Part shown: one piece after another, positions 1,008-54,019 of the stretch
How the letters are laid out: each line of letters begins with the position of its first letter
Numbering within the stretch: the first letter of the stretch is position 1
From: Liolophura sinensis
Lineage: Eukaryota; Mollusca; Polyplacophora; Chitonida; Chitonidae
Length of the DNA stretch: 64,000 nucleotides
Direction: 5' to 3'
Assembly: GCF_032854445.1 (NCBI RefSeq)
Contig: NC_088301.1
Coordinates: 6,620,044 to 6,684,043 of the forward strand
Made by a program: the position numbers and the translations under genes
The notes under the pieces: generated by a model
What the model was told of the DNA's origin: nothing
Databases searched by the model: none
What the model saw: the letters and a program-made list of their open reading frames with translations, nothing else

Positions 1008-4000
1008 GTAAATACAGACACATCAACAGCATCAGTGTAACTACAATGAGGTTTGCAAGGATAAAACTTTGTGTTGTGCCAACAGTATGAGATACAGGCG
1101 CAGACTGTCGGGCAGGCATAAATTCTGTAGTATTGCTACATTTCTTGGAAATGACAAAGTTAATATCAAAGGCAACCAGGGTTCAAGCTCAGGTCGTTTT
1201 GTACCAAGGACTTTAAAAATGGTACTTGCTGCTAACTAGCTTTGGCAGCATGGATTCACCTTGCCAGAACCTATGTACACATACCTAATGACTCTTCATC
1301 ATTATATGGCTGAAAAATTGCATGACGTTTAACCCCATACATTCATACATACATACCTACAAAGTTAATAAGAAACAGGGATGCCTGTTGTGTCCTGAAG
1401 GCATTAAGTTCCCTTCTAATCATGACCTTTGTTTTACAATAACGACACCATGAAATATAAGCTTGGAACTTATCAATAAATATCTAGTTATGTCAAATTT
1501 CCTAAAATTCTTCCCCCCCCCCCCCCAAAAGTGTGTAAATGTCATAAAATATTAATTTTGGAGCTACAAGTTATAATATCATCCTAGCTTAACTTTTAAA
1601 CAAAACTCAAAACATCTTCAATTTTTTAGGATCAGCAGAACTCTCAGAATTAGACAAAATGGGTAACTTTGGCATGGACGAAAGTTTAGGTCATTTACTG
1701 TAATATTGAGTTGTTGTTTTTGTGACATGTCTGTTGTATACTACACGCACATGTATCTCTCTTGGCAGTTTATGATGATTACAAATTTGTAACAAGACGA
1801 GAACTGGACGATCTTGGCCTCTCTCACCTGATTGGCTCCAGTCTGTTACGAGCGTACATGCATGGCTTTTTCATGGACATGCGTCTATACAACAAGGTAT
1901 GATAGTACCCCAATTCCTCAACCTTTTCGCATATGAAAGAGCAACTTTCAGTGCAATTTATGAACCTTTATGATGTTATTTTGAAGACAAAATTACATTG
2001 TTTATGTGGGCCAATTTCAGGGCTTCACAAAAAATATTACTTTACCAGTCTACACAAAATAATGCTTTAAGAATATGCCTGAATAAACACCTTGAAAACA
2101 CGGGAAAAGATTGAAGAATGACAGTACTCTGTACATGTACATACACGTAGGCCTACCTGGTGAAATTGCTGACAAATTTGGGATACATTTATACTAATCA
2201 GGGGTTAAAATGTTTGGTCATTCCCTCATTCTTAAGAATTCAAACTAAAAATGATGACCTGAATTTGAGGCCAGATCATCAAAAAGATGACTTTAGACCG
2301 TGCATAATTTCATTCACTTAGTTGATTGTTTGTTTTTTGTCAACTTAATGGCAGTTTTACAATGTCTCTAAATGGAATCTAATACATTTCTTAAATCATA
2401 TTGGAAGATCTTAATTTTTATAAAAGTCATCACTCTGAAGAGCTCGAAATATCAAAAATTTTTACCCCTGTACTTTGTACAGCGTAAATACATGTACTAA
2501 AATCAATACGTAGTGGAATTTAGAAGAAAATACACAAAGTTCTTTGAAGCTGGTTACTCCTGCCCACACATGTTTAGGGGCCTGAAGGTGGTTACTCTTG
2601 CTCACACATGTTCAGGGGCCTGAAGCTGGTTACTCTTGCCTGCACACGTTCAGGCTGGCATGAAGCTGGTTACTCCTGCCCACACATGTTCAGGGGCCTG
2701 AAGCTGGTTACTCTTGCTCACACATGTTCAGGGGCCTGTTTCACGAAGTGCACATAGCGCTACGTTAACATAACTACGATAGCAGTGTAATACCTATAGT
2801 TCCGGTCGCCATGGAAGTTAAGTACATGTAATGTTATGTCCACTTCATGAAAAGGGCGCGTGCAAATCAAGTATACAATGTAGATTTCATGTTGATAGAT
2901 TTCATATTTCATCTGAAATATTGCCAGTGTGGTGTTGAGCCATAATCATTCATTCATTAAGCTAGATAGATGGGAAGTTTGAACATAAAACTTCCTGTAG
3001 TGCACATGTGCATATAGAGGGTTTTGCAGGACCTTTGCATGTCTCTATTGTTGTTATTATTATTATTACTATTTATTATTGTTATTATACTTTGCACATT
3101 TTGTTCTGTTATTGGGTACTTAATAGGCCAAGTCCATAGCTGATCCCTTTGCCTATGAGGAATACAGGAAGAGTAAAATACGAGAGAAGATAGAGCATGC
3201 TAGAGAGAACCGTGTTCGACTCAAGGTAAGATTTTGTAGACATCATGCCCTATTTGGCATTAGAGTTGCAGGCTTCAGAGTTGGTTTCTGTATATTCAGT
3301 TCTGAATAACTTTGAGCCCCCTGAATACCAACTTATCTGTGTAACTGTTAACATTACATGTATGTGAGTAATCATAGCCCATAAGGGCCCCTCCATGGGC
3401 AAGCTGCCAGGCTGTGTCCAGATCCGAAGCAGTGAGATCGTATGTGCTTGAACATAACAGCGTATCAGCGTCAGCCTTTAATTACAGATGCACCTTGGTA
3501 TGGTACCTGGTACCTGCCCGCCATCATATTAGCGATATATTCTGGAATACTGCTTAAATAAATAAATAACCTTTAGTTACAAAAAATAAGAATATGGTTC
3601 TGTTTTGTTGAAATGGTGAAAAAAATAAATATTGTACAGCAATATTTATTGTACAGCAGTATTTATTGTATAGCAGTATTATTGTACAGCAGTATTTATT
3701 GTATAGCAGTATTTATTGTACAGCAGTATTGTATAGCAGTATTTATTGTACAGCAATATGTATTGTACTGCAGTATTTATTGTACGTGTATATATAATTT
3801 CTTCTGCAGAAACTGCCTCGAGTGAACAGAATGTTGGCGGAGAAGCTAGTGGAGCAGGAAGAGAATCCTGGCTTTGGCAAGAAGGGAAAGAAGGTGAGTT
3901 GGGAGGGGGGCAGGGGAAGTTGAGCATGTGTGTGAGGTTGTCGTACAGGTGATGGGGTTGTAGGGTGGCATGTTTGGGGTATCTTCTATCTGTCCAGGCT

Positions 4001-7000
4001 AAATATAGATGCAAGATGTTGCCATGGATATCCAAAATTTGACTATTATAATTAGCTAATACGAACGCAGTGAGGTGAGGCCAAAGGCTGAGGCGAGCTA
4101 AGAATGGCCTATAGGCAAGGTGTAAGCTAAATACATTTACCTGACCTATTCGTGAGGCACGGTAAATGTGACCACGGAACTTCGGTTTCTTAGATAGCTG
4201 CTGTGTTGAAAGAACTATGGGAAAATAGCAAGAAAGTGTCATCTGCACCAGAATCTAAAAATGATCAGCACTGCACACTTATAATTTCACAGCCCTATGG
4301 CACACAATCACCATTAATCTTTTAGACAGCATTTTCTTTCTAGGCCATTTTTAGTCAAAGTTGGTGTAAGAGACCAAAGGCGAAAACGCAAAAAAGTTCA
4401 GCATGAAGGCATCCTAGCAATCACGTGCAAATCAGCGATCGGCTGCAACAGACTTTCAAGTTTCACATCACTCAGTTGAGACTAAATTAATGCTTTTCAA
4501 ATGGAAAGCTTTACTAGATGTTTTACTCAGTCACAAACTAACTTCCCTTTTTATTGATTTATTTTTTTGTTAAGGTAAAGACAGTACACAACATAACTTA
4601 TGCTGTAGGCAAAAAAAAAAACAGTACAAAAATCGAATTGTTTAGTTCCTTTCATTGACATGTTGTCAATGACCTTATATTTCATTAACAATTTATTTCA
4701 GTTACCTCACACTCGATTGATAAAATGAGTAAACATTTATCCAAAAGAAGTAGAGACATGAGTGCATGCAGACAGACAGTGAAAAATGCATTGTGCAGCA
4801 AGTGAAGTGTAAATGACATCTGATGATATATTTCAGGCGGGAAGTGAAATGAGGTTCATTGAAGAGATTTTATTATCGGCATTTCTACATGTATACGTCA
4901 ATATCATTTCAGACAAATGTCCCGATTTTCTCCTGTCATAATGCTGTCCATTGTCGTAGTCAAACACCCTTTGGTACGGCGTAAAACTTCAATCAAATAA
5001 ATAAATCAATCAAATACACCCGTTATATAATCAGTATAAATAATATACATGTATTTCAGTTTATTACAAACTTGTTTTCATCTCTACCTGTTTCTTTTTT
5101 TGTTTAATTTCATGAGCCATATACATTACAGGTTTTGAAATCAGATCACCAATAATTATCCAGTCTATTAGAAAGCCTTTTACAGGTTTTGGCGCACATC
5201 CTGCGATTTTGTTCATAGTTCACGTATGTGTGATTATCCAGTCTATTAGAATGCCTTTTACAGGTTTTGGAGCACATCCTGCGATTTTGTTCATAGTTCA
5301 CATGTGTGTAATTATCCAGTCTATGAGAAAGCCTTTTACAGGTTTTGCAGCACATCCTGCGATTTTGTTCATAGTTCACGTATGCGTAATTATCCAGTCT
5401 ATTAGAAAGCCTTTTACAGGTTTTGGAGCACATCCTGCGATTTTGTTCATAGTTCACATATGTGTAATTATCCAGTCTATGAGAAAGCCTTTTACAGGTT
5501 TTGCTGCACATCCTGCGATTTTGTTCATAGTTCACGTATGTGTGATTATCCAGTCTATTAGAAAGCCTTTTACAGGTTTTGGAGCACATCCTGCGATTTT
5601 GTTCATAGTTCACATATGTGTAATTATCCAGTCTATTAGAAAGCCTTTTACAGGTTTTGGAGCACATCCTGCGATTTTGTTCATAGTTCACGTATGTGTG
5701 ATTATCCAGTCTATGAGAAAGCCTTTTACAGGTTTTGCTGCACATCCTGCGATTTTGTTCATAGTTCACGTATGCGTAATTATCCAGTCTATTAGAAAGC
5801 CTTTTACAGGTTTTGGAGCACATCCTGCGATTTTGTTCATGGTTCACGTATGTGTGATTATCCAGTCTATTAGAAAGCCTTTTACAGGTTTTGGAGCACA
5901 TCCTGCGATTTTGTTCATAGTTAATGTATGTGTAATTATCCAGTCTATGAGAAAGCCTTTTACAGGTTTTGGAGCACATCCTGCGATTTTGTTCATAGTT
6001 AATGTATGTGTAATTATCCAGTCTATGAGAAAGCCTTTTACAGGTTTTGCTGCACATCCTGCGATTTTGTTCATAGTTCATGTATGCGTAATTATCCAGT
6101 CTATGAGAAAGCCTTTTACAGGTTTTGCTGCACATCCTGTGATTTTGTTCATAGTTCATGTATGCATAATTATCCAGTCTGTGAGAAAGCCTTTTACAGG
6201 TTTTGCAGCACATCCTGCGATTTTGTTCATAGTTCATGTATGCGTAATTATCCAGTCTATGAGAAAGCCTTTTACAGGTTTTGCAGCACATCCTGTGATT
6301 TTGTTCATAGTTCATGTATGTGTAATTATCCAGTCTATGAGAAAGCCTTTTACAGGTTTTGGAGCACATCCTGCGATTTTGTTCATAATTCACGTGTGTG
6401 TGATTATCCAGTCTGTGAGAAAGCCTTTTACAGGTTTTTGAGCACATCCTGCGATTTTGTTCATAGTTCACATATGTGTAATTATCCAGTCTATTAGAAA
6501 GCCTTTTACAGGTTTTGGAGCACATCGTGAGATTTTGTTCATAGTTCACGTATGTGTGATTATCCAGTCTGTGAGAAAGCCTTTTACAGGTTTTGCAGCA
6601 CATCCTGCGATTTTGTTCATAGTTCACGTATGTGTGATTATCCAGTCCATTTAGAAAGCCTTTTACAGGTTTTGGAGCACATCCTGCGATTTTGTTCATA
6701 GTTCACGTATGTGTAATTATCCAGTCCATGAGAAAGCCTTTTACAGGTTTTTGAGCACATCCTGCGATTTTGTTCATAGTTCACGTATGTGTAATTATCC
6801 AGTCTATTAGAAAGCCTTTTACAGGTTTTTGAGCACATCCTGCGATTTTGTTCATGGTTCACGTACGTGTGATTATCCAGTCTGTGAGAAAGCCTTTTAC
6901 AGGTTTTGCTGCACATCCTGCGATTTTGTTCATAGTTCACGTATGTGTGATTATCCAGTCTATGAGAAAGCCTTTTACAGGTTTTGGAGCACATCCTGCG

Positions 7001-10000
7001 ATTTTGTTCATAGTTCACATATGCGTAATTATCCAGTCTATGAGAAAGCCTTTTACAGGTTTTGGAGCACATCCTGCGATTTTGTTCATGGTTCACGTAT
7101 GTGTGATTATCCAGTCTATTAGAAAGCCTTTTACAGGTTTTGGAGCACATCCTGCGATTTTGTTCATAGTTAATGTATGTGTAATTATCCAGTCTATGAG
7201 AAAGCCTTTTACAGGTTTTGGAGCACATCCTGCGATTTTGTTCATAGTTAATGTATGTGTAATTATCCAGTCTATGAGAAAGCCTTTTACAGGTTTTGCT
7301 GCACATCCTGCGATTTTGTTCATAGTTCATGTATGCGTAATTATCCAGTCTATGAGAAAGCCTTTTACAGGTTTTGCTGCACATCCTGTGATTTTGTTCA
7401 TAGTTCATGTATGCATAATTATCCAGTCTGTGAGAAAGCCTTTTACAGGTTTTGCAGCACATCCTGCGATTTTGTTCATAGTTCATGTATGCGTAATTAT
7501 CCAGTCTATGAGAAAGCCTTTTACAGGTTTTGCAGCACATCCTGTGATTTTGTTCATAGTTCATGTATGTGTAATTATCCAGTCTGTGAGAAAGCCTTTT
7601 ACAGGTTTTGGAGCACATCCTGCGATTTTGTTCATAGTTCACGTGTGTGTGATTATCCAGTCTGTGAGAAAGCCTTTTACAGGTTTTTGAGCACATCCTG
7701 CGATTTTGTTCATAGTTCACATATGTGTAATTATCCAGTCTATTAGAAAGCCTTTTACAGGTTTTGGAGCACATCGTGAGATTTTGTTCATAGTTCACGT
7801 ATGTGTGATTATCCAGTCTGTGAGAAAGCCTTTTACAGGTTTTGCAGCACATCCTGCGATTTTGTTCATAGTTCACGTATGTGTGATTATCCAGTCCATT
7901 TAGAAAGCCTTTTACAGGTTTTGGAGCACATCCTGCGATTTTGTTCATAGTTCACGTATGTGTAATTATCCAGTCCATGAGAAAGCCTTTTACAGGTTTT
8001 TGAGCACATCCTGCGATTTTGTTCATAGTTCACGTATGTGTAATTATCCAGTCTATTAGAAAGCCTTTTACAGGTTTTTGAGCACATCCTGCGATTTTGT
8101 TCATGGTTCACGTACGTGTGATTATCCAGTCTGTGAGAAAGCCTTTTACAGGTTTTGCTGCACATCCTGCGATTTTGTTCATAGTTCACGTATGTGTGAT
8201 TATCCAGTCTATGAGAAAGCCTTTTACAGGTTTTGGAGCACATCCTGCGATTTTGTTCATAGTTCACATATGTGTAATTATCCAGTCTATGAGAAAGCCT
8301 TTTACAGGTTTTGGAGCACATCCTGAGATTTTGTTCATAGTTCATGTATGTGTAATTATCCAGTCTATGAGAAAGCCTTTTACAGGTTTTGCTGCACATC
8401 CTGCGATTTTGTTCATAGTTCACGTATGCGTAATTATCCAGTCTATTAGAAAGCCTTTTACAGGTTTTGGAGCACATCCTGCGATTTTGTTCATAGTTCA
8501 CGTATGTGTGATTATCCAGTCTATTAGAAAGCCTTTTACAGGTTTTGCTGCACATCCTGCGATTTTGTTCATAGTTAATGTATGTGTAATTATCCAGTCT
8601 ATGAGAAAGCCTTTTACAGGTTTTGGAGCACATCCTGCGATTTTGTTCATAGTTAATGTATGTGTAATTATCCAGTCTATGAGAAAGCCTTTTACAGGTT
8701 TTGGAGCACATCCTGCGATTTTGTTCATAGTTCATGTATGCGTAATTATCCAGTCTATGAGAAAGCCTTTTACAGGTTTTGCTGCACATCCTGCGATTTT
8801 GTTCATAGTTCATGTATGCGTAATTATCCAGTCTGTGAGAAAGCCTTTTACAGGTTTTGCAGCACATCCTGCGATTTTGTTCATAGTTCATGTATGCGTA
8901 ATTATCCAGTCTGTGAGAAAGCCTTTTACAGGTTTTGGAGCACATCCTGTGATTTTGTTCATAGTTCATGTATGCGTAATTATCCAGTCTGTGAGAAAGC
9001 CTTTTACAGGTTTTGCAGCATATCCTGCGATTTTGTTCATAGTTCACGTATGTGTGATTATCCAGTCTGTGAGAAAGCCTTTTACAGGTTTTTGAGCACA
9101 TCCTGCGATTTTGTTCATAGTTCACATATGTGTAATTATCCAGTCTATTAGAAAGCCTTTTACAGGTTTTGGAGCACATCGTGCGATTTTGTTCATGGTT
9201 CACGTATGTGTGATTATCCAGTCTGTGAGAAAGCCTTTTACAGGTTTTGCAGCACATCCTGCGATTTTGTTCATGGTTCACGTATGTGTGATTATCCAGT
9301 CCATTTAGAAAGCCTTTTACAGGTTTTGCAGCACATCCTGCGATTTTGTTCATAGTTCACGTATGTGTAATTATCCAGTCCATGAGAAAGCCTTTTACAG
9401 GTTTTTGAGCACATCCTGCGATTTTGTTCATAGTTCACGTATGTGTAATTATCCAGTCTATTAGAAAGCCTTTTACAGGTTTTTGAGCACATCCTGCGAT
9501 TTTGTTCATGGTTCACGTACGTGTGATTATCCAGTCTGTGAGAAAGCCTTTTACAGGTTTTGCAGCATATCCTGCGATTTTGTTCATAGTTCACATATGT
9601 GTAATTATCCAGCCTATGAGAAAGCCTTTTACAGGTTTTGGAGCACATCCTGCGATTTTGTTCATAGTTCATGTATGCGTAATTATTTTATAATATGTAA
9701 TATACTAATTAGAATGTTAATGTGCAAATTATGGATATAACAGTTTCCTGTTAGAGCTGCAAACATGGACAGTAATCACTGAAGTATAAGGCTGTAAGCC
9801 TGAAAAGAGTATTAGCCACCCAAGTTTAAGACATAAGACCATCCAGACTGATCTATACAGGTGGTGGTAGCTTAACATGGATGTTACCAGTTTGAGTTCA
9901 CAGCCTGCAACGAATTATTATATCAAAGCAAAGGATCTATGTTTTGACAAGGTTTATATCATACATGGCGTACCAGAAATCTAGGATCACATTTCAGTGA

Positions 10001-13000
10001 CTTCTTTCCCTCTCTGACCATATGTGGGAAGGTCTGTCAGCAACCTGCGTATGGTCGTAGCTTTCTCCAGGGCTCTGCCTGGTTTCCTCCCGGCATAATG
10101 CTGGTCACTGTTGACTAAAGGGAGTAGGGCATAAAGCATCAATCAAATAAAAAATAAATAAATAAATCAGTGACTTCTCAAATTATTATTTTTTTCCCTG
10201 TTGGCCCCATTTTAATTATCCATGCTGTAGAAGGCTGTGAGTCTGATGGAACAGCTAATTATAAGCGAAAGACTTTTCCCCGATAATAGCCAAGCAAACA
10301 GCGTTTAAAGAGCAGAAAAATTGAAGAATGGAGAAATGCACCACATGCAACACACATATAAGTATTTGATAAATTCTTTGGTTACTATTTCAGCTACTGT
10401 AAATATAGATAATAGTTTAGTTATAATTTGCCTAAAACTGTATAGATGTATATGTAGGCCTACACACTACCTTTGGCCTTTAGGCCTATTTCATAGTATT
10501 AATTATTTTAAATGAATATCTATTCTAGGTATCTATTAAAGTCATGTATTTTGTCCACATTGCATTGTCCACAAGAAAAGAAGATCTGACTGTCTGATCT
10601 TCAGTCACTATAATATTTATAAATTGACTTTGTAATGCTAATGTGGATTTTGTAATGCTAATGTGGATTTTGTAAGGCTAATGTGGACTTTGTAAGGCTA
10701 ATGTTTCATGGTTGTGAGCTGGTTCATGCTTTACCATACATAAGAGATTGTACTTAATAATGCTTCAGATCTGAATGGGGTGGGAGAATTCAAAAGAAAA
10801 GCACAAATTGGTAAATCTGAATTTATGATTTGTTTTCAGGAGCCAGTAGGAAGTTTATTGAAGGATGACCGTTTCTCAGCCATGTTCCAAAACCCTGACT
10901 TTCAAGTGGACACAGAGAGTGAGGAGTACAAGCTGCTTAACCCTGTGGTCTCCAAGCTGGACAAGCAGAGGATGAAAAAACACAAACTGCCACCTGGTGG
11001 CCAGCAGTTTGAGGAAGTGGAGGTAACTGTATTTTATAACAAAATTTATGACTATTTTATGGTACGGTACACATATAGTTAGGGCTTTTTTACCAGCTCT
11101 GAGATGGGTTGGCCATGTTCCCAGTTTAGCCATGTTTCCCACGTCAATCTTTCTGAATCGTTACAATCACAAACATGGAATGCGATACTGTTGTCTGTGC
11201 TGCTCTCGTAGTCCCAATGTTGTACACCACAAAAAGAGGCGTCCTGTGATCTTAAAGTACTTCTGAATTCATATCACCGCATTATGCTGGAATAATAAAG
11301 ACCATAGCATCGCAGTTAACATAAATGTAACCGACTCGGACCGTATCAGAACTTTACCAACCGCCATCTTCGAATCATGTGACTCCATTCCTACTCTCCC
11401 CAAAATGAAGATCATCTCCTTTTTCACAATAGTTGATTATACGTAGGGTTCCTTTCTGTTCATTAAGATACAAATTAAAGACTCTCAAATAATTTGTCAA
11501 TCACCGTTTAGATTGTGTACGTCTCATTGGTTTCAATCAAATCATTCCACGAGTTTATAATTTTTTGATGAAGCCAAGTGCAGCCAACTCAAATTTAAAA
11601 TGACGGTCAGCAGAGTTTGGCTTATTGCCGATGTAATAGGTATGTTTGTTTAAATTCTGATGGAAAGGTCTTTATTATTCACAAATAACTAGGTTATATG
11701 AAGTAAAAGTTACTGAAGGATTACAGGAAACATTTTTTGGTAGCGTACAGCTTCGACACGTTGTGGACAGCACGTGCAAAACATCAGTGTTACCGGTTTA
11801 GTGAATGAAAGAGAACAGATCTGTATATCTGCAAATTAAGTTGGGAAGAATGAAACAGATCTCAAATCTAGCTGTTTACAACAATCCGACAGTAATATGA
11901 GAATTTCGAAATGCTGAAATTTTAAAGTGAGAAATTGACATTCCCCTCCACCCCCACCCCAAAAAAGCCTGCAAACTTGACTTCTGGATGCTTCAGTGAA
12001 AGTTAATGAATCGGCAGTGCTGTATGATATGGTTTGTAAACAAACTTCATGGTAAATGTCAGAACACAAATGAATGAAATGTGAAAGGAACGTGTGTTTG
12101 ATCGTCATAATTTGACCTTGTTTTGACCTTGGGATCACAGGGTGGGCAAAGCGATGGAAGTCCCGATGATGATGAGGACAGTAGCAGCAATGATGAAGAT
12201 GAGAGGGCGTGGAAGGCTGAACTCAAAAAGCAGCACCGCCTCTTAAGAACGGAAAAGCGACTGAGGCGTCACCATGACGACGAGAGTACCTCACAGAAGC
12301 CCAAATTCTATGAGATCAAGGAAGGGGCAGAATTCAAAAGCTTAAAAGATAAAAGTAAACAGTCAAAAGTATTGAAGTGAGTACAAGGACATTGAGTAGC
12401 AAGTTAATTACGACTGTTTACATTTTTATGTCTTAGACTAACGTGCTGTTACATAAAATAACTTGTATCATAGTGTTTGTTTGCACAGGTCTGACAGCAA
12501 CCTGCAGATGGTCATGGGTTTCCCCAGGCTGCCCAGTTTCCTCCCACCAAATAAATAAACAAATTTACGTGTACAAGAGACCAATTTTCCGACAACATAC
12601 CGTTGATTAGCCATGACGTGTTTAGACATTCATGTCATCACTGGCACATTGGCATGTAAGAAATGTCATGATAGTTAGTAGTATTTTTAAGGGAGCAATC
12701 ATCATGAAAATGTAATACTTATTTGAGTTCATCCTTGGTGGAGCAGAAAGTGTAATGTATGTGACAGGGTATGTGGTGGGCCTTGGACATGTTGGAAACT
12801 GAGAAAAGCTATTGAAATTGAGAGTGACCTTTCCAGGCCTTAAAACCAAGTGGTTTTGTGGTTGGGTATGGAAATTGAGAGTGACCTTTCTAGGCCTTGA
12901 AAACCAAGTGGTTTTGTGGTTGGGAATGGAAATTGAGAGTGACCTTTCCAGGCCTTGAAAACCAAGTGGTTTTGTGGTTTGGTATGGAAATTGAGAGTGA

Positions 13001-22500: not shown

Positions 22501-25500
22501 CCCCATATGTCTGTCTCGTATCTATACACATGTGCACACACACATGTACTTGTACATACAAATACCAGTATGTAAATTTACATTATACACTACAACCCTG
22601 TCATGGATACCAGACAGGCCATTTAGTGAGCAGGCCATTGCTGAGTACTCAGCTGGCCATTTAGTGAGGAAGCCATTGCTGAGTACTGAGCGGGCCATTT
22701 AGTGAGGAAGCCATTGCTGAGTACTGAGCAGGCCATTTAGTGAGGAAGCCATTGCTGAGTACTGAGCGGGCCATTTAGTGAGGAAGCCATTGCTGAGTAC
22801 TGAGCAGGCCATTTAGTGAGGAAGCCATTGCTGAGTGCCCAATAGGCCATTTAGTGAGCAGGCCATTGCTGAGTACTGAGCGGGCCATTTAGTGAGGAAG
22901 CCATTGCTGAGTACTAGCACGCCATTTAGTGAGGAAGCCATTGCTGAGTGCCGAATAGGCCATTTAGTGAGAAGGCCATTGCTGAGTACTGAGCGGGCCA
23001 TTTAGTGAGGAAGCCATTGCTGAGTACTGAGCAGGCCATTTAGTGAGGAAGCCATTGCTGAGTGCCGAATAGGCCATTTAGTGAGCAGGCCATTGCTGAG
23101 TACTGAGCGGGCCATTTAGTGAGGAAGCCATTGCTGAGTACTAGCACGCCATTTAGTGAGGAAGCCATTGCTGAGTGCCGAATAGGCCATTTAGTGAGCA
23201 GGCCATTGCTGAGTACTGAGCAGGCCATTGCTGAGTCCTGAGCAGGCCATTGCTGAGTACTGATCACGCCATTGCTGAGTACTGATCAGGCCATTGCTGA
23301 GTACTGAGCAGGCCATTTGCTGAGTACTGAGCAGGCCATTGCTGAGAACTGATCAGGCCATTACTGAGTACTGATCAGGCCATTACTGAGTACTGATCAG
23401 GCCATTGTTGAGTACTGAGCAGGCCATCCCTGAGTACTGATCTGGCCACCTCCTAAGCAGGCCATCCCTGAGTAATGATCTGGCAGTCTACTGAGAAGGC
23501 CATCCCCGAGTACTGATCTGGCCATATACAGAGCAGGCCATCCCTGAGTACTGATTTGGCCATCCCCGAGTACTGATCTGGCCACCTCCTAAGCAGGCCA
23601 TCCCTGAGTACTGATCTGGCCATCTACTGAGAAGGCCATCCCCAAGTAATGATCTGGCAGTCTACTGAGAAGGCCATCCCCAAGTACTGATCTGGCCATA
23701 TACAGAGCAGGCCATCCCTGAGTACTGATTTGGCCATCCCCGATTACTGATCTGGCCACCTCCTAAGCAGGCCATCCCTGAGTACTGATCTGGCCATCTA
23801 CTGAGCAGGCCATCCCGGAGTACTGATCTGGCCATCTACAGAGCAGGCCATCCCCGAGTACTGATCTGGCCATCTCCTCAAAAGGCCATCCCTAAGTACT
23901 GATCTCGCCATATACAGAGCAGGCCATCCCCAAGTAATGATCTGGCCATCTCCTCAGAAGGCCATCCCTGAGTACTGATCTCGCCATCTACTGAGCAGGC
24001 CATCTCTGAGAACTGATCTCGCCATCTACTGAGCAGGCCATCCCTGAGTACTGATCTGGCCATATACAGAGCAGGCCATCCCCAAGTAATGATCTGGCCA
24101 TCTCCTCAGAAGGCCATCCCTGAGTACTGATCTGGCCATCTACTAAGCAGGCCATCCCCAAGTAATGATCTGGCCATCTCCTCAGAAGGCCATCCCTGAG
24201 TAATGATCTGGCAGTCTACTGAGAAGGCCATCCCCGAGTACTGATCTGGCCATATACAGAGCAGGCCATCCCTGAGTACTGATTTGGCCATCCCCGAGTA
24301 CTGATCTGGCCACCTCCTAAGCAGGCCATCCCTGAGTAATGAACAGGCCATCTATTAAGCAGGCCATCTCTGAGTATATTTATAACACTAACAGCTGACC
24401 CATAACATTAATCACAGTCAGATTGAATCCTAAGCTCCATATTAATCTGATTAAACAATAATAATCTAGAATATCAAGGAATTTTTCACAGTCTATTAGA
24501 AATGACCTCATATCTCTCTAAGGAATTGCACTTTTAGGGGCAAACAAATGTCATAAAATACCACTTTGCAGTATAATATCAACCAATAAACTTTCCAACA
24601 AACCTCAAAACATCCTTCAGAATCGAGAATAAAAAGCAACATAGTTGTGGATCAAATTTTAGGTTATTTACCACAATCACCATAATATTATTGTATTGCA
24701 GTGTGATACATGTATGATTTCTCATCACTTTTCACCTTCTAGTCACACTTTGATATGTATAATCATGATCAAACAGGCAATTAGCTGGTGAAAAATGCCG
24801 TGAAACTGGAAGTAATTTACTGTACAGAAAACCATAACTTACCTCTTGTGGAAAACGTAATCTAGGTAGGAAGCCGGAAAATGAGCGACAAACTCGGAAA
24901 TGTACTTTGTGTCATAAACTCCTGCTTCAAATATCTCAGAAATGTCCGAGACAAATGTACCAAGTGAGGCTGGAAGTGTGGCATAGAGATTCTCATAGAG
25001 AAAGCCAAGGTCAACGAAAGCATTGTGGAACACCACAGGAACTTGACTGAGGATGATATGAGCAAAGAGACTTCGTATTCCAGGCTTATCCAAGCTTAAT
25101 TTAGTCTGAAAAAAAAGCGACTTGACTGAGCATGTGTGTAAGTAAAAAGACTTCACATAGCAGACTTAATTAGGTCTGAAAAACACACTATACATATTTT
25201 ACTAAAGATGGCATATGAACAAAGAGACTTAATATTCCAGGCCTATCCGGAAGGCTTTTAACTTGGAGATGAACAAACAACAGAATAGCTCTTATAACTT
25301 ACCATATCCTCACCCTTATCATATGGGATTCCTTGAGAATATTGTTTGTTGAAGTCAAATCCATGGTCCACCAGGAATCTCAGGGCTTCTGCCTCCACCA
25401 CATAGTCTTGCTGACACAATACAGATATGTTAAATGTCTGAACCATATACTTCATCGCAAAGTCACACTGAAGCTTTTCTCTGTTAGTGCAAGGTTTGTC

Positions 25501-30254: not shown

Positions 30255-31762
30255 GTTTTTTTGTCATAAAAAAGTAAAAACGCGGTTCCGGGTTTGATTC
30301 TAAGCAGGACTTAGTGTATGACTGCATCGTTTCCTCTACCAGAACGCATCGTCACGAACGAAGCAATTGGAATTGTGAAATTGCGACCACATGCAAAACG
30401 TCCTTTTGAGGCATGGCTCGTGATGCACGTGAGGTAATGTTGCATAAATACTCTTGCTCGAAAGAGCAGACATTCAGTGACCGAAAAAACACCAACAGTA
30501 TGCCAAGACTTACGCAAGCGCAACGAGACCAGGCCATCGGTATGTCCACCATGGGTGTCTCTCAACGTCACATTGCAAGAACGTTCAACTGCAGCCAAAC
30601 CACCATCAGGAGGTTGTTGATACGCTATCAGCAGACAGGCCAGACCCAAAACAGACCAAGATCGGGAAGACCGAGGGTAACAACTGCGGCTGAAGATCGC
30701 TACATCCGGCAGTTCCACCTCCGAAACCGATTCGTCACGGCGACGGCACTAGGCCATGTCATCAGTCCCAGAACAACACTGCGTCGTCTTCGTTCAGCTG
30801 GTTTACGACCTTACCGCCCCTTCCGTGGGATGGCCTTGACCCTTTTACATCGTCAACGCAGATTGCGATGGGCACGTATTGTACGTCGGTGGCAGCGACG
30901 TGACTGGGCGAGAGTGTTGTTTACAGACGAGAGCAGGTTCTGTCTATTCAGGAACGATGGCAGAGTTCGATTTTTCCGACGAAGAGGCGAGCGTCTCGCG
31001 CCAAACTGCGTAAGAGAGGTTTATCCGTTTGGAGGCGGAGGCGTCATGGTTTGGGGAGGGATTTGTGACCAAATGAAGACGCAACTGGTTATTGTGCGAG
31101 GTAATCTGACTGGCCAGCGATACGTTGATGAGGTACTGAGACCTGTCGTCGTTCCTTTCCTCCGACGACAGCCAAGAGGATCGATCTTGCAACACGACAA
31201 CGCAAGACCTCACACTGCCTGCATTGTTACAGACTACCTCGAGACCGTAAACGTCATCGTGTTGCCCTGGCCAGCCAACTCACCAGACATGAACCCCATT
31301 GAGCATCTCTGGGATCACCTTGACCGCCGTTTGAGACAGCTGGTGCCTCCTCCAACTAACCAACAGGAACTTGAGCAAGCTCTGTTAAACCTATGGAACG
31401 TTATCCTTGGTGACGTCATCCGGCGACTGACGACGTCAATTCGGAGGCGTGTGCTTGCTTGTATTGATGCCCAGGGTGGCCACACTCGCTACTGATGACT
31501 GTAGTCCTTCATTTCTGTGGATACTGTGACTTTACATGCACTTGCCAGTTAATTTTAAATTTGTGTAATTTTTTTCTTCTGACCCCTTGTCTCTTTCATT
31601 GTGTTTTGTGACCAATTGAATGCCAATATTTTAAAGCCTTTTTGAGAGAATATTTCACAATGATTCCTGTTTATAAACCAATCTTCTTAATTCTTATATC
31701 TGCCTTTGTTTTTGTTTTAAGTGCTCAAGAAGTGGGTGAAACCTTTCTTTTGCCTGGTAGTT
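30227..31762 (+). mobile_element. intact Tc1/mariner-type transposon
   Basis: A 1536-bp element bounded by TA dinucleotides (30225-30226 and 31763-31764). Identical 31-base inverted arms lie at 30224-30254 and 31735-31765, counting the TA and one neighbouring base. It encodes one uninterrupted transposase in the + direction. Perfect arms plus an open frame point to a young insertion, possibly still active. It is visibly more GC-rich than its surroundings. Sits between TOE1 and AADAT. Confidence 0.93.
30500..31495 (+). CDS. Tc1-like DD34E transposase
   Basis: Cuts and rejoins the element ends at TA targets in the nucleus (family knowledge). The protein from ATG 30500 is 331 residues, the usual Tc1 length. 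Start MPRLTQAQRDQAIGM opens the paired helix-turn-helix DNA-binding region (about 1-50), followed by the GRPR motif near residue 56-59 and the second HTH. The DDE triad is visible: D143 in FTDESRF, D233 in QHDNARPH and E268 in NPIEHLWD, with 34 residues between the last two. The frame is open 29 codons further upstream (from 30413), but homology begins at 30500. No stop or frameshift is seen. Stop is TGA at 31493-31495. Confidence 0.94.
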   Translation: MPRLTQAQRDQAIGMSTMGVSQRHIARTFNCSQTTIRRLLIRYQQTGQTQNRPRSGRPRVTTAAEDRYIRQFHLRNRFVTATALGHVISPRTTLRRLRSAGLRPYRPFRGMALTLLHRQRRLRWARIVRRWQRRDWARVLFTDESRFCLFRNDGRVRFFRRRGERLAPNCVREVYPFGGGGVMVWGGICDQMKTQLVIVRGNLTGQRYVDEVLRPVVVPFLRRQPRGSILQHDNARPHTACIVTDYLETVNVIVLPWPANSPDMNPIEHLWDHLDRRLRQLVPPPTNQQELEQALLNLWNVILGDVIRRLTTSIRRRVLACIDAQGGHTRY

Positions 31763-33061: not shown

Positions 33062-33925
33062 TTTAGAGGTTCGAGTCATTCAGACTCGAATCCCTATTAT
33101 ATCTCTTCATCTTATTAGAGGTTCGAGCCATTCAGACTCGAATCCCTATTATATCTCTTCACCTTATTAGAGGTTACAGCCATTTAGACTCGAATCCCTA
33201 TTATATCTCTTCACCTTATTAGAGGTTCGAGCCATTCAGACTCGAATCCCTGTTATATCTCTTCACCTTATTAGAGGTTACAACCATTTAGACTCGAATC
33301 CCTATTATATCTCTTCACCTTATTAGAGGTTCGAGCCATTCAGACTCGAATCCCTATTATATCTCTTCACCTTATTACAGGTTACAGCCATTTAGACTTG
33401 AATTCCTATTATATCTCTTCACCTTATTAGAGGTTCGAGCCATTCAGACTCGAATCCCTGTTATATCTCTTCACCTTATTAGAGGTTCGAGCCATTCAGA
33501 CTCGAATCCCTATTATATCTCTTCACCTAATTAGAGGTTACAGTCATTCAGGCTCCAATCCCTATTATATCTCTTCACCTTATTAGAGGTTACAGTCATT
33601 CAGGCTCGAATCCCTGTTATATCTCTTCACCTTATTATAGGTTACAGTCATTCAGGCTCGAATCCCTGTTATATCTCTTCGCCTTATTAGAGGTTACAGT
33701 CATTCAGGCTCCAATCCCTATTATATCTCTTCACCTTATTAGAGGTTACAGTCATTCAGGCTCGAATCCCTGTTATATCTCTTCACCTTGTTAGAGGTTT
33801 GATCCCTTCGAGCTTGAATCCCTATTATATCTCTTTACCTTATTAGAGGTTACAGTCATTCAGGCTCCAATCCCTATTATATCTCTTCACCTTAGCTCGA
33901 ATCCCTATTGTATCTGTTCAGATTA
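33062..33925. repeat. 52-bp tandem array, ~16 copies
   Basis: Unit cttattagaggttcgagcca ttcagactcgaatccctatt atatctcttcac. The ttcgag...ctcgaa arms form a 6-bp hairpin in intact units; many units have ttacag instead and lose it. Confidence 0.94.

Positions 33926-42135: not shown

Positions 42136-54019
<11,884 letters not shown>

Follow-up and report, generated by a model that had tools for sequence, protein, structure and literature searches.

A single-locus 78-bp minisatellite with higher-order blocks, very probably born inside a copy of a dispersed repeat, in a predicted NOL10 intron of Liolophura sinensis

The DNA analysed in this work is a stretch of 64,000 nucleotides from Liolophura sinensis (NCBI RefSeq assembly GCF_032854445.1, contig NC_088301.1, positions 6,620,044 to 6,684,043 of the forward strand), hereafter the window, and the subject is a 78-bp tandem array lying in a predicted intron of a gene that was taken as NOL10, a housekeeping gene, on the + strand, with predicted intron bounds of 3894-10839. 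The upstream exon (3810-3893) ends in AAG/GTGAGT, the slash marking the predicted boundary, and weakly matches residues 443-463 of a 'Nucleolar protein 10' chain (7mq8; E 0.75). The downstream exon begins at 10840, behind TTGTTTTCAG, matches the same chain at residues 478-520 (E 2.2e-14) and carries a NUC153 domain; a NOL10_2nd domain was found upstream, at about 1768-1902. The two exons are nearly consecutive in the protein, which makes it unlikely that a coding exon has been overlooked between them. An earlier interpretation of the window, made from its letters alone (the sequence-only reading), had placed the array within a NOL10 intron, and the matches of the predicted flanking exons to 'Nucleolar protein 10' bear out this placement.

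Tandem Repeats Finder returned a single array at 5153-9686 (period 78, 58.1 copies, 94% matches). Successive occurrences of the motif T[AG]ATTATCCAG, 58 in all, lie either 78 or 79 bases apart, so no unit of the array was skipped, and unit length is 78 bp in 55 units and 79 bp in the remaining 3. Units differ pairwise by a mean of 4.99 over 79 alignment columns (93.7% identity), 22 of the 79 columns are variable, and the terminal partial unit consists of the 7 bases TAATTAT. Marker units, those with one extra base, are separated by 1249 bp (16 x 78 + 1) and 1405 bp (18 x 78 + 1). The sequence-only reading had reported about 58 units of 78 bp and a one-extra-base variant recurring at these two distances, and both agree with the coordinates and counts obtained here (5153-9686, 58 units; 79-bp units starting at 6635, 7884 and 9289). 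Past the last unit, within 9680-9712, lie about 20 A/T-rich bases with no counterpart in other copies of the dispersed element described below.

Units were compared with one another at each lag, and the mean difference was lowest at 34 units (2.13), 16 units (3.05) and 18 units (3.35), compared with 4.58 between adjacent units. When unit order was shuffled 5000 times, the means at lags 34, 16 and 18 never fell below 3.83, 4.02 and 4.00, respectively. With the best of lags 1-44 taken from each shuffle, none of the 5000 attained the observed value for lag 34 or for lag 16, and 4 attained that for lag 18. For 43 of the 58 units a nearest relative is 16, 18 or 34 units away, whereas 2000 shuffles gave 6.4 such units on average and 22 at most; an adjacent unit is the sole nearest relative of none of the 58 and the tied nearest of one. 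Runs of units are exactly identical (10-15 to 26-31, and 17-23 to 33-39). The claim of the sequence-only reading that units in multi-unit blocks are closer to their counterparts than to their neighbours is thus upheld by lag means, shuffles and nearest relatives alike, and the unit comparison that it had named as its own refutation test found nearest relatives that are not adjacent.

The blocks themselves (Table 1) were delimited from these distances. Blocks A and B are 16-unit copies of one another, as had been proposed. The third block, C, shows 25 differences from A and 24 from B, over 15 units each, and its match spans about 15 units together with two flanking units (42-43, which resemble 8-9 with one difference each); therefore the '18-unit' block of the sequence-only reading is better described as a diverged 16-unit copy plus two units. 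Units 1-7 form no block. By pattern the array is a higher-order repeat, in that its blocks are more alike than the units inside them, with only three blocks, the third of them diverged. Two block-duplication events suffice for the observed pattern, and the simplest history drawn from the distances would be that some 18 units were duplicated long ago and that a 16-unit stretch within them was duplicated recently.

Another way to obtain A and B is duplication during assembly, for example by placing two alleles of a variable number tandem repeat (VNTR) in series, in which case the true array would hold about 42 units and a single older block repeat. The two blocks differ at just 3 sites over their first 15 units (10-24 versus 26-40; 6 over all 16), which is low for old copies. 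However, A and B are not identical, an array of 4.5 kb is short relative to long reads, and C, at 24-25 differences from either of them over 15 units, attests to an older block duplication as well. Assembly duplication is regarded as unlikely, though it is the strongest of the competing explanations.

The origin of the unit was traced by searching the 609-Mb assembly. The unit search gave 70 matches, of which 58 fall in the array and the remaining 12 lie at other loci with 79-88% identity (all 13 first-look candidates were scored, and repeat counts are lower bounds), and at all 12 other loci the unit is single-copy. Both flanks of the array belong, together with the unit, to one dispersed family in which their order is kept. 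Flank searches gave, in rough numbers, 2831 (right) and 1126 (left) first-look candidates, 40 candidates being scored for each flank, and 59 (right) and 64 (left) matches were listed, the window's own included. Collinearity of the flanks was kept in five copies, though only partly in one of the five, designated L025r. Members of the family, a non-coding repeat, can be aligned along some 2-2.6 kb, and the copy surrounding the array spans about 4038-4213 to about 10453-10508.

This element is a dispersed, non-coding and probably non-autonomous repeat. The longest stop-to-stop frame in the spans of five copies has 104 amino acids (no domain search of these frames was made). Element ends are roughly alignable and inverted ends were suspected by eye; in an end-to-end test they were not significant in four of five copies, the window copy gave a weak signal (p 0.018), and inverted repeats listed in two copies have mostly A/T-rich or internal arms. 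That the element is a transposon is suggested by its dispersal.

Alignment of the window copy with the others located a deletion at the left edge of the array. In the other copies AATAATTA is followed by 340-370 bp that are absent from the window and then by the unit core, TCCAGTC...GTATGC, whereas in the window AATAATTA is joined directly to that core. At this left junction four of five copies continue past AATAATTA into other sequence, and the fifth (L022) is unaligned there. The unit consists of about 70 bp of element interior plus TAATTA from 340-370 bp upstream, and the same fusion opens the remaining units, with A or G at base 2. Since the fusion opens all units, the deletion should have preceded or accompanied the first tandem duplication.

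The distance between flanks was then estimated in the copies with both flanks among the matches listed, by pairing a left match reaching query base 480 with a right match starting by base 80 at a gap of <6000, and 34 of the 64 left-flank and 31 of the 59 right-flank matches were used. Left matches omitted although they reach base 480 were C5:6067401 and C6:63547853, which have no right-flank match near them, and the window's own; right matches were omitted if they start beyond base 80 or belong to the window itself. All 21 other copies so paired have an estimated spacer of 181-884 bp, with a median of 393, whereas that of the window is 4539 bp, and none of the 21 holds a comparable expansion. 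The two longest spacers (715 and 884 bp) contained no 78-bp array on inspection, and one of them holds a 45-bp repeat in three copies. As in a tandem repeat derived from a transposon, the unit is single elsewhere and its flanks are collinear with those of the other copies.

Table 1. Coordinates of the array, its blocks and marker units, the surrounding element copy and the predicted intron (window positions)
Feature	Start	End	Strand	Description or basis
NOL10 intron with array (predicted)	3894	10839	+	6946 bp; array makes up 65%
Element, left part	4038	5162	+	Matches to five genomic copies and genome search of 4600-5150; left limit about 4038-4213
Deletion junction	5153	5163	+	Upstream element ending in AATAATTA fused to core TCCAGTC...; alignment with other copies
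78-bp tandem array	5153	9686	+	58 units, then 7 bases of the next unit
Units 1-9, beyond the 16-unit blocks	5153	5854	+	Unit distances; units 8-9 are the edge and resemble 42-43
Block A, units 10-25	5855	7103	+	Differs from B at 6 sites in 16 units, the last unit holding 3 of these
79-bp marker, unit 20	6635	6713	+	Motif spacing
Block B, units 26-41	7104	8352	+	Near-identical to A
79-bp marker, unit 36	7884	7962	+	Motif spacing
Block C, units 44-58	8509	9679	+	Older diverged copy
79-bp marker, unit 54	9289	9367	+	Motif spacing
Element, right part	9712	10508	+	Belongs to the same element as the left part; right limit near 10453-10508

Taken together, the array is very probably a single-locus minisatellite (VNTR-like) that arose within the NOL10 intron, inside one member of an old family of dispersed non-coding repeats. 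Minisatellites and VNTRs have units of 10-100 bp and total lengths of 0.5-30 kb, and the array falls within these limits in unit size and total length and occupies one locus. In the proposed history an internal deletion, here or in a near ancestor, first fused AATAATTA to TCCAGTC..., as the comparison of copies shows. The 78 bp running from TAATTAT to the next TAATTAT would then have been duplicated in tandem, with the 7-bp repeat serving as microhomology; judging from the terminal TAATTAT, this 7-bp direct repeat may have bordered the founding 78 bp. Growth would have followed by slippage or unequal exchange, the units diverging to about 6%. Finally, a block of about 18 units would have been doubled and a 16-unit block later doubled again, which would give A, B and C as their pattern appears today. 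Polarised against the dispersed copies, units score 13-17 of 18 sites. Units 1-9 are nearer the dispersed-copy majority (mean 16.0 of 18 sites, versus 14.7 of 18 for units 10-58). The left end of the array thus seems nearer the ancestor, and growth may have been directed towards the right end.

Several points weigh against this history. The 7-bp microhomology is read solely from the window copy, and the roughly 20 bases beyond the last unit have no match in other element copies. Copy number and the A/B duplication are both read from one assembled sequence. The element is a putative transposon by its dispersal, and its inverted ends were not significant in four of the five copies tested and weak in that of the window. 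As to the block pattern, multi-unit lags exceeding the single-unit lag were absent from 5 of the 11 other arrays compared in the window and from 3 of the 7 sampled elsewhere (see below), so such patterns are common and not general.

A function for the array was considered on account of one motif. Every unit holds CCTTTTACAG/G, which resembles a splice acceptor in the sense of NOL10 and lies inside a 16-bp stretch (columns 24-39) that is invariant across the 58 units. The pattern Y6NCAGG occurs in the array 58 times on the + strand and never on the - strand, compared with 2 (+) and 3 (-) occurrences in the rest of the window, and candidate splice sites within units could, speculatively, be placed directly after TTTTACAG. 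One could imagine from these features a bank of decoy splice acceptors, in which 58 element-derived motifs are held invariant through use in decoy or recursive splicing and copy-number alleles tune NOL10 output. However, the motif was inherited from the element (the dispersed-copy majority reads TCTTTTACAGG at this position), repetition of a unit multiplies any motif it contains, and an invariant run of at least 16 columns is expected in 6% of random placements. Functional constraint was therefore not accepted on the basis of the invariant run, and with an inherited motif and a run of this chance expectation a splicing role stays speculation; a functional intronic array of this kind would be very improbable. 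Most likely the minisatellite is neutral intron ballast that is lost with the rest of the intron at splicing, and no finding demands a function.

Also very improbable is the interpretation of the array as an intronic outpost of a centromere-type satellite organised in higher-order repeats. Multi-unit blocks do exceed neighbouring units in likeness, as in such satellites, but the units are already 93.7% alike and the contrast in identity between blocks and units is small. No second array was found in the 609-Mb assembly, which could itself lack a centromeric satellite. The sequence-only reading had asked whether the 78-bp unit is also a centromeric or dispersed satellite, and the genome search found, besides the array, 12 single diverged copies. 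The CENP-B box core is absent from the array on both strands, although the box is also missing from many centromeric satellites. The large family with many long arrays that would make the unit alpha-satellite-like was not found in the assembly, in which repeat counts are lower bounds, and the unit derives from the element interior. A centromeric satellite was thus rejected on the genome search and the element origin, and the kinship implied by the term 'alpha-satellite-like' fails with one array, 12 single diverged copies and a unit taken from inside an element; on the evidence here the comparison is right as to pattern and wrong as to kind. The accompanying premise, that higher-order structure is normally centromeric, was too strong, a non-centromeric case being described in the literature (PMC2588610).

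The open frames at 6006-6497 and 7255-7746, which the sequence-only reading had compared, are open because 78 is divisible by 3 and that frame of the unit holds few stops, and they do not by themselves indicate coding; a coding repeat was rejected, with no test made of codon selection, as the long frames follow from the 78-bp period and the array sits between exons, and a structured-RNA reading was dropped, no Rfam family being found in the 64-kb window at gathering thresholds.

Other tandem arrays were compared with the NOL10 one by exact 15-mer matches at multi-unit versus single-unit lags, a measure that takes the best of many lags and scores arrays with insertions or deletions low. Twelve window arrays were chosen by size, the NOL10 array included, two of which overlap (22615-23554 and 23325-24292). 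The NOL10 array gave the highest block-lag value among them (0.58 at 1249 bp). Among the 11 others, without significance testing, a multi-unit lag beat the single-unit lag in 6, tied in 1 and did not do so in 4. Multi-unit periods that beat the single unit include 227 bp (6 x 38) at 22615-23554 and 156 bp (3 x 52) at 33063-33894, and the array at 23325-24292 has its best lag at 174 bp, a length that does not divide evenly into its 38-bp units. Outside the window, 7 of about 12 arrays of at least 200 bp were sampled from eight 10-kb stretches of the same genome, and the multi-unit lag was higher in 4 of the 7, in some by a small margin (again without a significance test). Tandem repeats with a period of at least 10 make up 25% of the window (19% without the NOL10 array), versus 11.6% of the eight sampled stretches.

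Further features were recorded elsewhere in the window. A 360-amino-acid frame at 30413-31495 (+) matches DDE_3 and a Tc3-type helix-turn-helix and is, by its domains, Tc1/mariner transposase-like. Weak matches to aminotransferase class I/II (E 2e-5 and 5e-6) at 49505-49966 (+) probably mark an exon, and a domain search of the frame at 53077-53508 gave no match. On the - strand, a 235-amino-acid frame at 18870-19577 matches the terminal part of the CAF1 ribonuclease model at 21.4 bits, below the cut-off of 24.2, and this frame overlaps two tandem arrays, one of 91-bp units at its end and one of 84-bp units at its start.

At this one locus the birth of a tandem array is cleanly legible, from an element copy through an internal deletion and a junction-defined unit to tandem growth and then two successive block duplications. 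Nor does a higher-order pattern alone mark a satellite as centromeric, since the nested duplication of blocks yields such a pattern here within an intron. Neither conclusion upsets current views, and the array looks like an ordinary though well-preserved instance of a known process. A general literature search, in which no species was named, did not find the array at the NOL10 locus in print.

Non-centromeric higher-order repeats are also found in the human NBPF genes. Another example is the human 61-bp VNTR at Xp22.33, whose irregular higher-order repeats measure 1.6 and 2.5 kb; introns also harbour some of the large human arrays (PMC2588610). The NOL10 array resembles the Xp22.33 one in being non-centromeric, with short units and irregular blocks of kilobase size, and differs from it in that the latter is 18 kb long and pseudoautosomal, with no element origin stated in the portion of that paper used here (PMC2588610). 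Satellites derived from central segments of DNA transposons are covered by a review, as are internal arrays that grew via microhomologies of at least 5 bp (PMC12628747). Like these transposon-derived satellites, including those from miniature inverted-repeat transposable elements, the NOL10 array comes from an element interior and shows short direct repeats and an internal deletion; unlike them, it is single, is neither dispersed nor heterochromatic in the assembly, and has a host element of unassigned class (PMC12628747). In the oyster, the Helentron-type element Cg_HINE also carries tandem repeats inside a dispersed non-autonomous element, and HINE elements have as hallmarks a subterminal inverted repeat (subTIR), a microsatellite and a palindrome (PMC7492417). 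The arrays of Cg_HINE belong to the element family (PMC7492417), whereas here the other copies are single-unit, 12 of 12. The tandem repeat PcH-sat of the limpet Patella caerulea likewise goes back to part of a mobile element, Nin-SINE; it is pericentromeric on five chromosome pairs (PMC11121367), whereas the NOL10 array occupies one intronic locus.

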